The translations under genes and the position numbers were made by a program. A DNA stretch of 64,000 nt from Eucommia ulmoides (Eukaryota; Streptophyta; Magnoliopsida; Garryales; Eucommiaceae): assembly GCA_016647705.1 (NCBI GenBank), contig CM028334.1, forward strand, positions 2,790,001 through 2,854,000, given 5' to 3'. Below are positions 19,255 through 63,798 of this stretch, in pieces. The notes under the pieces are model-generated. The model was given only the letters and a program-made list of their open reading frames with translations, did no database searches and was not told the origin of the DNA. The number at the start of each line of letters is the position of its first letter. The stretch's first letter is position 1.

Positions 19255-22252
19255 TACTATGAGTGTAGACCATTTTCCAACACCAACAAAAATGTTTGTG
19301 GAAAATGAGAGAGGGTTGCCACATTATGGTGGACGGGTGCGGATAAAAAAGTTAGTCAATGAGAATAAGCTTAGGTTGGCAACTTGAAATATAGGAACGC
19401 CGACAGGTAAGACTCAAGAATTGGTGGATGTGATTAATAGGAGGAGGATTAATATTCTATACTTGTAAGAAACTAAGTGGGTTGGAGAGAGGTCTACAGA
19501 AATTGAGAGTACGAGATATAAATTATGGTATACGAGAAAGGACAAACATAGGAATGGGGTGGACATCATGATAAATAGGGATTTAAAGGATAGCATTGTT
19601 AATGTTAGGAGAACTGATGATAGGATGATAGTTATGAAACTGGTGATTGGAAGAGAGGTGATTAACATTATTAGTGTGTACACTCCCCAAATTGGACTGT
19701 AAAAAAATGTTAGATGAGAGTTTTGGGAGAAGATGGACGAAATCGTTCAAAATATACCTAACCAAGAAAAAATATTTAGTGGGAGAGACTTGAATGGACA
19801 TGTCGGGAAGGAAATAGGGACTTTCGAGAAAGTACATGGTGGTTATAGATTTGGGGAGAAGAATGCAATGGGTGAGATGATTTTAGATTTTGCTATGGCG
19901 TATGATTTAGTTTTTCTAAATACATGCTTCAGGAAAAATGATGAACACATTATCACATTTAAAAGTGGTTAGAGGAATAGTCAGATATATTTTATCCTTA
20001 CTAGGACAAGTGATCGTTTAATATGTAAGGACTGTAAAGTCATATCCGAAGAGAGTATTGCTACCCAACATAGACAAATGGTAATTGATCTGAAGTTTCA
20101 GGGGTGAAAAACGGGAGTCTAAGATAAGTAGGCATGCAATGATACATTGGAGAGATTTAAGAAGTGAAAAGATGGAGTTGTTTAAGGATAAAATTAACAA
20201 TAATTAATTATGAAAGAGAAATGAGGATGTGAACAAAATAATGATTGATATGACGAGTCATATTAGAGAGATAGGAAGAGAGGTTTTAGGAGTTTATAGA
20301 GGAGGAGGAGGAGGACCACGATATAAAAAAAAGTTAGTGGTGGAATAAGGAGGTCCAAACAGTTATTCGGGACAAGAATATAACTTATAAAAATGGCAAA
20401 AATATCGAAGTAGGGAGAGTTTGGAGAAGTATAAACATGCAAAAACGAAGGTGATAAAAATAATTAAGGAATCAAAATTTAGGGCGTATGATAATTTATA
20501 TAAAAAGTTAGATACAAAAGAGAGAGAGTGAGATATATTTAAACGTGCAAGACGACATAAACGAAAGACTAGAGATATTGTAAATGTCAGATGCATAAAA
20601 GACAATAATAAAAAGGTACTGATGAAAGATGAAGAGATTATGGAATGATGGAGAAGTTATTTTTATAATTTATTCAATGAGAATGACGTCGGGGAATCTA
20701 AACTAGAGTGGCCTAATTTATCTTCAAATAAGATTTATAGGTTTTATGGAAGAACTAAGGTTTCGAAAGTTAGAATAACACTAAGGAAGATGCGAATTAG
20801 AAAAATAATAGGGGCAGATGAAATCCCTGTACAGGTGTGGAAAAGTTTTGGAGATATTGGGATAGAGTGATTGACTAGACTTTTCAATGACATTTTGAGG
20901 ACTAAAAGAATACCTCACGACTGGAGAATGAGTATTTTAATGCCCATTTATAAAAATAAAAGGGATGTTCAAAATTGCATGAACTATCAGGGTATAAAAC
21001 TTATGAGTTATATTATGAAACTTTGGGAGAGAGTGATAGAATATAGAATAAAACATGAAACAAGTATAAAAGAAAACCAATTTGGATTTATACCCAGCCG
21101 ATCAACCACTGAAGCTATCTATTTACTCAGGAGATTAATGAAAAAATTTAGAGAAAAAAAGAGAGATTTACATATGCTATTTGTGGACCTGGAAAAGACT
21201 TATGATAGGGTACTCAGATAAGTTTTATGATGGGTGCTAGAAAAGAAACATGTATTCAATGTGTACATCGAAGTAATTAAGAATATGTAAGAAGGTATAG
21301 TCACTAGTATTCGAACAGGAGGAGACGATACTTATGCATTTTCTATTAATATAGGTTTATGATCATCTGTAAGTCCTTACCTCTTCGTTCTAGTGATGGA
21401 TGGACTCGCAAAACATATTCAAGATGGAGTACCTTGGAGTATGTTATTTGCGGTTGATATCATATTAATAGACGAAAGTAGAATAGGTCTTCATACTAAG
21501 TTAAAAAGATGGAGAAAAACGTTAGAGTCTAAAGGTTTGAAGGTTAACAGAAGTAAAACGGAATACATCAATTGCAATTTTAGTAATGCCATGAGAGACA
21601 GTAGTGCGGTCAAAATTGGAGACGATGAGGTACTGAAGGTTGATCATTTTAGATATTTAGATTCAATGATTCGAAACAATTGAGAAATTGAGGAGGATAT
21701 TACGCATAGCATCAAGGCAAATTGGTTAAAGTGGAAAAGTGCAGTTAGGGTGATTTGTGATCGTAGGATTCCGTTGAAACTTAAAAGAAAATTTTACAAA
21801 ACTGCTATAAGACCAATATTTCTTTATGGTTCAAAATGTTAGATGGTAAAAACAAATCATGTTCCGAAAATTGGGGTTACATAGATGAGGATGTTGCGGT
21901 GGATGAGTGAGAAGATGAGAATGAATAAAATTAATAATAAAACTATTAGAGAGAATTTAGAAATAACATCTATTGAAGAAAAAATTAGAGAAAATCATTT
22001 ACAATGGTTCGGACTAACACATAGAAGACCCATAGAAGTACCAGTGAGAAAATGTGATTTAGTTCAAGTGTAAGGGACTATTAGAGGGAGAAGTAAACTT
22101 AAGAAGACGTTAGACGAGACTATTAGAAATTATTTGGCGACATTAAACCTGATAGAGAAGATAACCCTTGATCGATCTCTATGGCGTAAGTGGATTCATG
22201 TAGCCGACCCTACATAAGTGGAATAAAGGTTTAGTTGTTGTGTTGTTGTTGT
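19255..22252 (+). mobile_element. RTE-type LINE, decayed
   Basis: Non-LTR retrotransposon with an apurinic-type endonuclease and a reverse transcriptase. Endonuclease pieces: LRLATWNIGTPTGKTQELVD, ETKWVGE, and GRDLNGHVG near 19790. Reverse transcriptase pieces: YKNKRDVQNCMNYQGIKL, QFGFIPSRSTTEAIYLLRRL and DLHMLFVDLEKTYDRV at about 20950-21220; the catalytic FADD position reads FAVD near 21452. A C-terminal block follows (RMLRWMSEKMRMNKI, ENHLQWFGLTHRRP). The 3' end has the plant RTE tail (GTAGCCGACCCTACATAAGTG) and ends in GTT-rich repeats at 22226-22252. Several stops and frame changes break the frame (for example TGA at 20648 and 20868), so it is inactive. The 5' edge is approximate. Confidence 0.88.
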
Positions 22253-22559
22253 AAAACAAATGTGGAATTTGATATATCAAAGGTGGAATTTAATAAACTT
22301 TAACATAGACATCCACCCCATACTTCAGGGACCAAAAATGTAATTTTCTCTTTGATTTTTGTAGCAGACGGATAGTAAGGAAAAGGAGGAACAATGAGAA
22401 CCCGAGTCAGGAATCTTTTCAGAAGTCTAGTGCATCCAATTAATTAATAAAACTCCCTTTCTGTGGATCCTACATTAACCTCATTACATTAATTTTCTCC
22501 TTTTTCTTGAGGAGATTGAACCTAAATTTTTTTCCAACCTGAATTTTTTATTGATATTT

Positions 22560-34548: not shown

Positions 34549-35285
34549 TTCTACTACAACAGCAACAAAAATGTTGTCCCACCTAAATAGGGTGGGCTAC
34601 ATAAATCATTTTTGCTCCATACAGATCATTTAAGAGTCATCTCCTCAATAACTTCTAACCAATCAGATCGTTTCTAATTGTTTTCTCCCACGTCTTCTTA
34701 AGTCTACCTCTCCCCTTTTGAACAACTTCCATTTTAATTAAATCAATTTTTCGCACTGATGCACCCTCAAGTCCACGTGTCCAAACCATCATAAACTATT
34801 TTCTCTCAACTTATCATAAATGGGTGTTATTTCTAACTCTCCCTTATAATGTCATTCCTAACTTTATTCATCATTATATTACCACTCATCCACCTTAATA
34901 TACTCATTTTTACTACACCTACTTCATGAACATGTCTCGTGTTTACCGCACAACATTCTAAACCACAGAGAATTGTCGGTCTTATCACAGATTTGTAGAA
35001 CTTTCCTTTCAATTTCAATGATATCCTACAATCAAAAATCACCATCTTGACTCTATATGTAACGTCCTTCGCAATTCCTTCATTCCCTTGTAAGTATAAA
35101 ACCTAAGTATTTAAATCAAGACCTCCTAGTCTAATTTTTTTACCATGTCATCATCTTTCAAAGTATTTCCATAATTGTTATGCATGTATTCTGTCTTAAT
35201 TCTATTGATCTTTAATCCCATAAGACTCTAAACCTTTTTCTCTAATATTATAATTTAATATTAAGGCCTCTTCTAGTTTCCTATT
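34549..35285 (-). mobile_element. RTE-type LINE 3' fragment
   Basis: Minus-strand pieces ISLKLKGKFYKSVIRPTIL and MSILRWMSGNIMMNKVRN match the C-terminal region of the LINE at 19255-22252. The 3' tail near 34549-34620 reads GTAGCCCACCCTATTTAGGT and continues into GTTGCTGTTGTAG on that strand. It is 5'-truncated and broken by frame changes. It sits in an intron of the unrecognised locus, same strand. Confidence 0.82.
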
Positions 35286-58324: not shown

Positions 58325-58755
58325 ACATTCAGTATATTATATTAGAGAGAGAGAGAGAGGGTGAGGAGATGAGACAAGAGAGTGAGAGAAATTGAGAAAG
58401 GGAGACATGAAGGGGATCCATGGTTGCTCGGTTCACCGTCGCTGGAGTAGGGAGGGGTGGGAGGGGAAGACACGAACTAGGGGAGCGGTGGGTTGGAAGA
58501 GGTGAAGACAAAAATATTTTGACCCTTTAAATTTAGAAATATTTTCAAATAGACCTATCGAATTAGTTGGAAAAACATGATAAAACTACCCAAATTTTTA
58601 AGTGAAATAACAAAAATACCCTCAGATTTGTTAAAATTTTAACTGTTGTACTTAATTCTTAAGCATAAAGGGTGTAAGTGGGGACGAAACTATCACAGGG
58701 GTGCAAAGTGCAATTCGATCTAACTACAAGGATATAAAGTGAAATTAACCCAAAT
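58325..58755 (+). mobile_element. MITE upstream of the dioxygenase, copy 1
   Basis: Shares with 60211-60652 the GA repeat, GGAGTAGGGAGGGGTGGGA, TTTTGACCCTTTAAATTTAG and the end AAGTGAAATTAACCC. The left end is missing. Confidence 0.6.
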
Positions 58756-58855
58756 AGATCTAATACTCCAATAAAACAAAAATGAAAAATAAATAGCCAT
58801 GGTAGAGAGTTTATGTAAAGCTCAAAAAACCAGAACAAAAAACTTGTAACAAACA

Positions 58856-61139
58856 ATGGGTTCCTTAACAAAACACAAACTCCCCATTATTGACCTCACA
58901 AAAGAAAACATGGAACATGGGACAAGCTCATGGTCCGAAACATGCAACCTTGTAACCCTAGCTCTTGAGAAGTATGGTTGTTTTGTGGCTCTTTTTGACA
59001 AGGTTTCAATGGAGCTTCACAATGGAGTTTTCAAGGCATTGGAGGAGGTATTTGATCTCCCAACACAAACAAAAATCCAAAACAAGTCCTCAAAACCTTT
59101 GTATGGCTATGTGGGACAAATCCCATTCATTCCTCTCTATGAAAGCATGGGGATTGACTATGCAAACACAATCGAAGGCCTTCAATCCTTTGCTGAAGTT
59201 ATGTGGCCGACTGGCAACGACGGTTTCTGGTAATCTCAATCTTTTTTGCTTATCTATTTTTTAAATTTGACATGTAATTTTGTTGATGAAAATCACATAA
59301 CCTTATCAACGTGAAGTCTTGCGATTAAGCCCTTGTGAATTTAACTGTTAAGGTAGTGTTTAGGAGCACAAATTGAATTTTGAATTTGAAATGAGCGCAT
59401 GTAGATTTTAAGATTTTTGACTTGATTTGATTTTATTTTAATTTAAAATTTTAAAAACTTTAATTTCACGTAAACAAACGCGATCTTAAAATTGGAAAAT
59501 TTGTACTTACTTTCTCGTGTGAAAGGAGAAGTATTGTGCGCGCCCGTGCATACCATGTATTTCGTGAGATTACGTGAATAAATTTCTCCTTATGCATGTA
59601 ATTCATATTTGTCAAGTTTTTTGTGAATCTTTTCACCTATTGATATTTTCTTTTTTCAAAGAACAAACTAGGCTTTATATTTCTCCATATTTCTCAATAA
59701 TTACTCTTTCAACCCCCCCTTTTTTTTTACTTATTTATGTGAAGTGAAACTCTGCTCTCCTACACCAAACTAGTAGCCGAGTTAGAACAAATGGTGGTGA
59801 AAATGGTGTTCGAGAGCTATGGTATGGAGAAGTACTATGATTCCCATTACCTCAAAACGGCGACCTATCTGAGTCGAGTCATGAAATACAAAGGACTCAA
59901 AACGAAGGAGAACAAACTAGGGTTTGTCTCCCACACAGACAAGAGCTTCATGTCTGTTCTTCATCAAAATCAAGTCAACGGGTTGGAGATCAAGGCTAAA
60001 GATGGAGAGTGGTTTGGCGTTGACTATACACCTTCATCCTATGTTGTCATGGCCGGCGATGCATTAATGGTGAGTATTAACTTACATTAATTTACACTTT
60101 ACCCCCCCAAAACTACTCTTTATTTTATTTGAGTGTCGGTTTAAAATATTTTTTTGTACTTTTCACAATATAACTAAAAAGTTTTTGCTTTTGGGAATGA
60201 CATATTTGGGTTAAATTCACTTTGTACACCTGTAATTAGATCAAATTGCATTTTGCATCCCTGATGGAGGTAGCTATTGTGGAGGAGACTTGGAGAAGAG
60301 AGAGAGAGAGAGACGAACAGGAATAGGGGAGGGGAGGTGGCGCGTTGGTTGCTTAGTTAATCATCTCCGGAGCAGGGAGGGGAAGACGAACATGAATAGG
60401 GGAGAGGGTTTGGAAGAGATGAAGGGCTGAAAATATTTTGACCCTTTAAATTTAGATTTTTTTTAAATAAAGCTCATGGAATTAATTGGGACAAAATTAC
60501 TCTTATTTTTTAAGTGAAATGACGAAAATACACTCAGTTTTGTTAATTTTTTAACTGTTGCCTTAAGTTTTAAGCAATCTGTACAAAAATTTTATAGGAG
60601 TGCAAAGTACAATACGATCTAATTACAGGAGAACAAAATAAAATTAACCCGGAATATTTTGTTCAACAGTTTGAACTGATTCTTTTGATGTTCACTAATT
60701 TAACCTTTCCTTTTTCCCTTTGACATGATATTATATGGTTTGAATTGGGGGTATATACATACATACATCCATACATATATATATATATATAGGGGATGGT
60801 CTTTGATCGTTCATTATGGCGTAAATGGATCTATGTAGCCGACCCTACTTAAGTGGGACAAAGACTTAATTATTGTTGCTGTTGTTGTAGGCATGGAGCA
60901 ACGGCAGAGTACACTCTCCTCATCACCGAGTGATGATGAATAGTGAGAGCGAAGAAGATAGATACTCCATCGGCCAATTCTCATTCATGGAGGGGATTGT
61001 ACGGACACCAGAAGAGCTTGTGGATGAAGATCACCCATTGATGTTCAACCCATTTGATCACCTTCAGTTTCTCGAGTTCTTCAGCAGAGAAGAGAATCGG
61101 AGACTTGAATCCGCCCTCAAAACCTATTGCGGTGTTTAA
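58856..61139 (+). CDS. AOP1-like 2-oxoglutarate- and Fe(II)-dependent dioxygenase
   Basis: Soluble oxygenase of the plant DOXC/AOP group (related to glucosinolate AOP proteins, but AOP1-like members are widespread and mostly uncharacterised). Exons 58856-59229, 59745-60069 and 60891-61139 give 315 residues, open throughout, all GT-AG. Start MGSLTKHKLPIIDLTKEN matches the family N-terminus. Iron ligands: His188 and Asp190 (FVSHTDKS) and His245 (SPHHRVMM). 2-oxoglutarate contacts: Arg257 and Ser259 (RYSIGQF). Family blocks: LYGYVGQIPFIPLYESMGID, VMKYKGLKTKENKLG, NQVNGLEIKAKDGEWFGV and the C-terminus SALKTYCGV. AATAAA at 61152 may be the polyadenylation signal. The exon 3 acceptor directly follows a LINE tail. 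Substrate unknown. Confidence 0.93.
60211..60652 (+). mobile_element. MITE in dioxygenase intron 2, copy 2
   Basis: Inverted ends GGGTTAAATTCACTTTGTAC with TTAGATCAAATTGCATTTTG on the left and GTACAATACGATCTAATTAC with AAATAAAATTAACCC on the right. The centre is a GA-rich, GGGAGGGGAAGACGAA-type block. Same orientation as 58325-58755. Confidence 0.7.
60793..60889 (+). mobile_element. RTE LINE 3' tail fragment at the exon 3 acceptor
   Basis: Matches the last 100 bp of the LINE at 19255-22252: TTATGGCGTAAATGGATCTA, GTAGCCGACCCTACTTAAGT and GTTGCTGTTGTTG. It is severely 5'-truncated. The terminal TAG at 60888-60890 is the splice acceptor of exon 3. Confidence 0.85.
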
Positions 61140-62254: not shown

Positions 62255-62281
62255 CCCCCCCCCCCCCCCCCCCCCCCCCCC

Positions 62282-62318
<37 letters not shown>

Positions 62319-62319
62319 G
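62255..62319. repeat. Composite microsatellite: C28, (CA)n, (TA)n
   Basis: A run of 28 C (62255-62282) is flanked by ACACAC on both sides and by (AT)n at about 62293-62319. Confidence 0.95.
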
Positions 62320-62389
62320 TCACAACAGATTTAAAAATTTGATTGTGTAGGGATAATTTTGTTTCTGTAGATTAATATAAATATAAAAT

Positions 62390-63770
62390 ATATATATTTA
62401 TAATTAACCTTATATCTAATACCTAATTGGAGACGAAAAATTAAATTAAAGAAATAATATAAAAGAGAAAATATAATATACAAAAATTATGAACATATTA
62501 AATTTAGTAATAATAATAAAATATTAAATTTATAAAAATTAAATTAAAAAATAATATAAAAGAGGAAATAGAAATAATATCGACATTAAATTTACAAAAA
62601 ATATTGAAATAATACATGCACATTAATTTTTTTAATAATACTAAAACATTTAATTTATAGAAATTAAATTAAAAAATAATATAAAAAATATATAATGTAC
62701 GATAATTATAAAGATTAAATTTATTAAAGTTATATAAATAATACATCAACATTAAATTTAGTAATTATACTGAAATATTATACGTAGAAAATATTATAAA
62801 AATAATATATCTAAATTAAATTTAGTAATAATACTATTTTATTAAATTCTGTAGATAATATTTGAAATTTAAAGTTATTAATAATACTGAAATATTAACT
62901 TTACATAAGTTAAATTAAAAAATAATATGAAAGAGTAAATATAATATACAAAACTTATGGACATTAAATTTATGAAAATTATTGAAATAATATAATATTA
63001 AATTTATTAAAAGTACTGAAATATTAAATTTATAAAACTTAATTAAAGAAATAATATAAACGAAAAAATATAATATATGAAAATTATGGACTTTAATTTA
63101 CTGAAATTATAGAAATAGTATATGAACACTAAATTTAATAATAATAATAAAATATTAAATTAAAAAAATAATATAAAAGATAAAATATAATATATGAAAA
63201 TTATGGACATTAACTTCATGAAAATTATAAAAATAATATATGCTCATTAAATTTAATAATAATATTGGAATGTTAGATTTATAGAAATTAAATCAAAAAT
63301 ATAGTATAAAAGAGGAAATATAATATATATAAATTATAGACATTAAATTTTTAGAATTTATAAAAATAATATATAGATATTAAATTTTGTAATAACAGAG
63401 AAATATTTAATTTACAGACATTAAATTTAAAAAAATATATATAAAAGAAGAAATATAATATAAAAAAATTGTGGACACTAAATTTATAAAAAAAATATAG
63501 AAATAATAAATCGATATTAAATTTAGTAATAATGCTGATACATTGAATTTATAAAAAAATAAATTAAAAAAATATAAAAAAGAAAATATAATATATGAAT
63601 GTTATGAATATTAAATTTACATAATTTAAATTAAATAATTAAAATAAAGAGAAAAATGTAACATATGAAAATTATGGATATTAAATTTATAAAAATTATA
63701 GAAATAATATATGGATATTAAATCAATGATACTGAAATATTAATTTATTGAAATTAAATTAAAAAATATT
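62390..63770. repeat. Diverged AT-rich tandem array, period about 125 bp
   Basis: The motif AATAATATAAAAGA recurs near 62453, 62550, 62676, 62920, 63050, 63168, 63298 and 63433, each followed by AATATAATATA and GACATTAAATTTA, then ATTAAATTTAGTAATAATACT. Units are heavily diverged and carry no coding sequence. Confidence 0.7.
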
Positions 63771-63798
63771 ATTATTTTTTTTTTTTTTTAATACGGGG

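Follow-up and report, generated by a model that had tools for sequence, protein, structure and literature searches.

The end of an RTE-type LINE directly abuts a native splice acceptor in a predicted dioxygenase gene and may supply its upstream signals

The window, by which we mean the whole 64,000-nt stretch of DNA analysed here (C10:2790001-2854000 of a 947-Mb genome), contains a gene whose three coding exons (Table 1) join in an intact frame of 315 aa. Both the 2OG-FeII_Oxy and the DIOX_N domains of the translation score above the curated cut-off (PF03171, E 6.7e-22; PF14226, E 4.9e-9). The HxD...H iron triad and the RxS motif are complete (H188-D190, H245, R257-S259), with catalytic roles that we presume from the family. 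The first-pass annotation had placed His245 and Arg257 in exon 3, and the joined translation bears this out. Among solved structures the best relative, aligned over residues 1-312, is deoxypodophyllotoxin synthase (8ci9, E 1e-74), and the predicted product is a plant AOP/deoxypodophyllotoxin-synthase-like 2OG/Fe(II) dioxygenase.

Three paralogous exons 3 (L030, L032, L034) follow downstream within 27 kb, at G000:C10:2857176-2877610, and form with the gene a tandem dioxygenase cluster extending beyond the window. The family has another, larger cluster, made up of 11 of the 20 paralog rows (L033, L035, L040-L048), which fall into one 0.8-Mb stretch (G000:C17:39.40-40.22 Mb). Intron 2 carries an inverted-end element of some 450 bp at 60203-60656, whose ends (60208-60262 and 60596-60650) are 80% complementary. 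A copy related to it is found at 58421-58756, about 100 bp upstream of the start codon. Together with the LINE tail described below, the inverted-end element makes about two-thirds of intron 2 repeat-derived. Further along the window, a C run followed by CA and TA repeats (62258-62320) is possibly assembly-sensitive simple sequence, and 62420-63780 is occupied by a long array of degenerate direct repeats, very rich in AT and in many places spaced by about 120-130 bp.

Table 1. Coding exons and candidate splice features of the dioxygenase gene (positions in the window).
Feature	Position	Strand	Remarks
Exon 1 CDS	58856..59229	+	ends in phase 2; 2OG/Fe(II) dioxygenase
Exon 2 CDS	59745..60069	+	HTD motif = residues 188-190; intron 2 donor 60069|60070, GTGAGT
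Older candidate branch point (inferred)	A 60698 of CTAAT	+	pyrimidine-rich to ~60722; 94 nt upstream of AG 60792, 192 nt upstream of AG 60890
(TA)8 run	60776..60791	+	left border of insertion; last A = first base of LINE match
TAG at 5' junction, possible competing acceptor	60790..60792	+	+98 nt, frameshift, stop after ...GMVFDRSLWRKWIYVADPT
3' end of 5'-truncated RTE-type LINE	60791..60887	+	last ORF codons, TAA stop 60850-60852, short 3' UTR, TTG tail
TTAAT candidate branch point	60866..60870	+	inside tail; A60869, 21 nt before intron end
TAG acceptor	60888..60890	+	AG native; first T possibly from element
Exon 3 CDS	60891..61139	+	contains His245, Arg257, stop

The 97-bp LINE match reported in the first-pass annotation exists, and starts two bases upstream of the position given there. 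At least 39 other near-full-length matches to it occur in the genome (84-91% identity, E 5.8e-32 to 4.9e-25), besides one partial match, and these counts are lower bounds as only the best candidates were scored. Two further copies of the tail lie in the window itself, at 22168-22253 (+, 83% identical) and 34551-34611 (-, 79%). Upstream of the tail, homology to further copies goes on for 25 to 2000 bp in all 39 listed other copies, unlike in the window copy, which stops at 60791. A reverse transcriptase domain (RVT_1) was found upstream of the shared tail in both longer copies scanned (L053, E 1.7e-8; L076, E 3.3e-15). The tail opens with the final codons of the element's ORF (a typical copy reads ...RSLWRKRIHVADPT-stop), and its 3' end is (TTG)n; (TTG)n or (TTGATG)n ends are reported for seven of the seven flowering-plant RTE families in Table 3 of PMC3747384. 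The upstream continuation of the copies, RVT_1, the C-terminal codons and the TTG end together lead us to identify the 97 bp as the predicted end of a 5'-truncated RTE-type LINE inserted in sense.

Tobacco TS SINE and potato RTE LINE are described as sharing about 100 bases and the TTG end (PMC3747384), and the source of the 97 bp might likewise be a TS-like SINE with the same 3' end as the RTE LINE. We regard this as improbable, given that every other listed copy continues upstream and that those inspected or translated are LINE, although the 97-bp fragment alone cannot tell the two sources apart. A SINE origin would concern the source of the fragment only and is compatible with the explanation preferred below.

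The window copy differs from the majority of the 39 listed copies at 9 of 97 sites. One of these is private (60831), one is found in a single other copy (60879), and the remaining seven occur in 4 to 18 copies, for which reason the insertion age is poorly fixed. Exact flank duplications of 7-20 bp border 12 of the 33 other copies with a placeable 5' end, compared with about 3% of 6800 mismatched pairings used as control; the other 21 show a flank match of only 3-6 bp by the strict test, and the six remaining listed copies were omitted since they extended as far as the fetched DNA did. The best exact flank match of the window copy is TAGG, which is within chance, as about 56% of mismatched flank pairs match over at least 4 nt. 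We therefore dropped this 4-bp duplication as proof of an insertion boundary; a search left of the element for an exact duplicate of the right flank longer than TAGG found none. With no duplication to fix it, position 60791 may mark either where the element originally inserted or where a later deletion ends, and of the two boundaries it is the 3' one that is informative.

At the 3' boundary the last TTG, the TAG and the first base of exon 3 follow each other without a gap, exactly as the first-pass annotation had described, and the tail makes up the entire stretch directly upstream of the acceptor, in agreement with its claim that the LINE supplies the tract there. It had also suggested that the LINE possibly supplied the AG itself. 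Tails followed by TAG are not rare in the genome: of the 40 listed copies, counting that of the window, 34 have a T right after the final TTG, 19 a TA and 6 a TAG. However, the bases after TTG vary among these copies, which argues that the element ends at TTG, perhaps with one additional T, and that the AG lies outside it. The 3' flank of a target-primed insertion, moreover, is target DNA. An AG stands at the identical codon boundary in all ten paralogous acceptors examined (L030-L039, those of the 20 paralog rows in which the match reaches the start of exon 3), and none of the 20 paralog loci, each taken with about 1.5 kb to both sides of its match, contained a hit to the LINE tail. The rest of the window's intron 2 was likewise without a match in these 20 loci. 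We rejected a LINE-supplied AG on the grounds of the paralogous AGs and the variable bases after TTG, and consider it hardly credible. The variable bases after TTG, the AG in ten of ten paralogs and the absence of the tail from the 20 loci instead show that the AG at the exon 3 boundary is ancestral and was retained.

The idea that the native acceptor had been replaced consequently holds in part: the upstream context was replaced by the LINE, whereas the AG, judging from paralogs and genomic copies, was kept. The replaced bases just upstream of the AG now form a U-rich TTG tract, and the replacement would extend to the branch point as well. As a result, 97 bp of LINE separate the older 3' region of the intron from the AG.

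The exact pattern of tail plus TTGTTGTAG has 34 occurrences in the genome, window included, and none in the reversed control. Reading about 260 bp downstream of the other 33 places gave 25 open peptides of at least 20 aa, and none of the nine peptides scanned had a Pfam match. No second case of a tail at an acceptor was seen in this way; the check is insensitive, because nine of 25 peptides were scanned and exon 3 of the window, as positive control, reached only 18.9 bits against the curated cut-off of 23. Three of the 33 places (L101, L102, L120) have the same right flank (ATAACTTATAGG...) and look like one insertion spread by duplication.

The usual acceptor is the first AG downstream of the branch point. 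Downstream of the AG at 60669 there is none until 60792, followed by AGs at 60838, 60853, 60863 and 60890. The predicted products of the first four are 252, 267, 262 and 234 aa long, and only the use of 60890 yields 315 aa. Upstream of the insertion, a CTAAT close to the consensus persists ahead of a pyrimidine-rich stretch, and this older candidate branch point might still reach AG 60890, with the LINE as a passive spacer between them. It meets AG 60792 first, however, and three more AGs precede 60890, so that under the first-AG rule the necessary distance of 192 nt with four skipped AGs appears unlikely, and so does this explanation. As the first AG after the older CTAAT shifts the frame to a stop, functional mRNA probably needs signals inside the tail; by the same rule, use of 60890 would require a branch point after 60863.

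The sole YTNAY after 60863 is the TTAAT with A60869. In the corresponding positions of the other listed copies, TTAGT, which contains an extra AG, is found in 31 of 39, TTAAT in seven and another sequence in one; G occupies the column of A60869 in 32 of 39, including L055, in which the preceding A is missing. A YTNAY motif is likewise offered by eight of the 39 other listed LINE copies, so the TTAAT version of the window copy is not special. A60869 is a common variant, and selection for it cannot be shown.

In several properties the site is within the range of its paralogs. The T fraction at -25 to -4 before 60890 is 0.59 (paralogs 0.32-0.77). TGTAG as it ends at 60890 also occurs in two of the ten paralogous acceptors, and TTAAT at 17-37 nt in four. 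A point against the site is its AG-free stretch of only 27 nt (paralogs 18 to >80). Another count qualifies the weight of the motif: four of the ten (L030, L033, L034, L036) have no YTNAY at 12-60 nt within the AG-free stretch, so that the rule is loose and the motif by this standard dispensable. In the window, 14% of 6227 AGs have a YTNAY at 15-40 nt, and four of the 6227 pass all four thresholds that we took from the values of site 60890 itself, which makes that number descriptive only.

Alternatively, most transcripts may use AG 60792 or retain intron 2, in which case the locus would be an early pseudogene. No other AG comes between the older branch point and AG 60792, which is preceded by TATATATAG|G, with no YTNAY at 12-60 nt; its use would cause the frameshift and read the LINE's own last codons up to the LINE TAA stop. 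For a young insertion, a frame left intact by chance would not be very improbable: in simulated neutral decay, the CDS stays free of stops with a probability of 0.53, 0.21 and 0.07 at 2, 5 and 9% divergence, and an intact frame is therefore weak proof of function. Among the ten paralogs, L036 and L037 do have an exon 3 stop and look like pseudogenes. Against a crippled gene stand the three exons, which join in an intact frame with the catalytic residues, and the nine differing sites of the window copy, with the reservation on age given above. In exon 3, pairwise pN (0.23-0.39) is lower than pS (0.60-0.83) against all eight paralogs compared, with pS near saturation, so that the ratio is uninformative on the time after insertion. 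We interpret the gene as likely functional and its loss through missplicing as rather unlikely, though less so than the passive role of the LINE considered before.

The explanation we favour, to which we assign a probability of roughly 60%, is that the LINE tail abuts the native AG and supplies its upstream signals, with exon 3 joined at 60890. A 5'-truncated RTE-type LINE has ended up in sense directly upstream of the native AG of intron 2, and exon 3 would since be joined by means of the LINE's U-rich TTG tract and the TTAAT branch point in its 3' UTR. We infer splicing at 60890 with these signals because the older branch point meets four earlier AGs first, all of which truncate the product. 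A share of the transcripts may instead be joined at 60792, with no productive outcome.

A broader generalisation is considerably more tentative, and in our estimate doubtful. The (TTG)n tail of this LINE family, in sense, could be a near-complete portable acceptor that needs only a downstream AG, and an essential acceptor could here have come to depend on one such tail for its branch point and its U-rich tract. The TTAAT variant, lacking the competing AG, would have helped, and a switch would result between 60890 (functional mRNA) and 60792 (a truncated product with a LINE C-terminus).

The locus is a clean candidate in which a transposon lies at distance zero from an essential acceptor and the reading frame is without visible damage. 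It separates the local needs of the spliceosome (branch point and tract, here putatively LINE-derived) from the native parts (AG and exon start). If RNA data agree, plant RTE tails would be capable of serving as ready-made acceptor contexts, which bears on predicting the effects of intronic LINE insertions.

The case adds an example to the known phenomenon of transposon-derived splice signals; its peculiarity is that the element gives the upstream context only and neither AG nor exon. In terms of TE-derived acceptors, the TE forms the tract before the AG and does not supply the AG. In Alu exonization, retroelement sequence takes part in splice-site recognition and creates new exons, while the LINE tail here refits the upstream side of an existing acceptor. 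Mouse L1 exonization, as described in PMC2176070, also involves retroelement sequence in splice-site recognition and creates new exons, whereas the front of an existing acceptor is rebuilt in the dioxygenase gene. Among plants, the exonization of Ds1 (PMC5432752) resembles our case in that a gene is provided with acceptor signals by a transposable element; Ds1, according to that account, comes with acceptors of its own and contributes part of itself to the mRNA, while the native AG and the exon of the dioxygenase gene are unchanged and no element sequence is needed in the mRNA. In our limited search of the literature on TE exonization and acceptor depletion, we came across no plant RTE tail directly next to a native acceptor.

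The element itself agrees with RTE-clade plant LINEs such as RTE-1_STu, as presented in PMC3747384, in its TTG-repeat end, the reverse transcriptase domain of the two longer copies scanned, its 5' truncation and the exact flank duplications of 12 of its 33 other placeable copies. It differs from the RTE-1_STu type (PMC3747384) in that the window copy has only 97 bp and no long target-site duplication. In mammals, TEs are reported to be depleted near acceptors and biased towards antisense, and those inside the depleted zones to be shorter (PMC3088655). The fragment described here is likewise a short TE beside an acceptor, but departs from the pattern given in that source in being a LINE fragment in sense, at distance zero, and in a plant.
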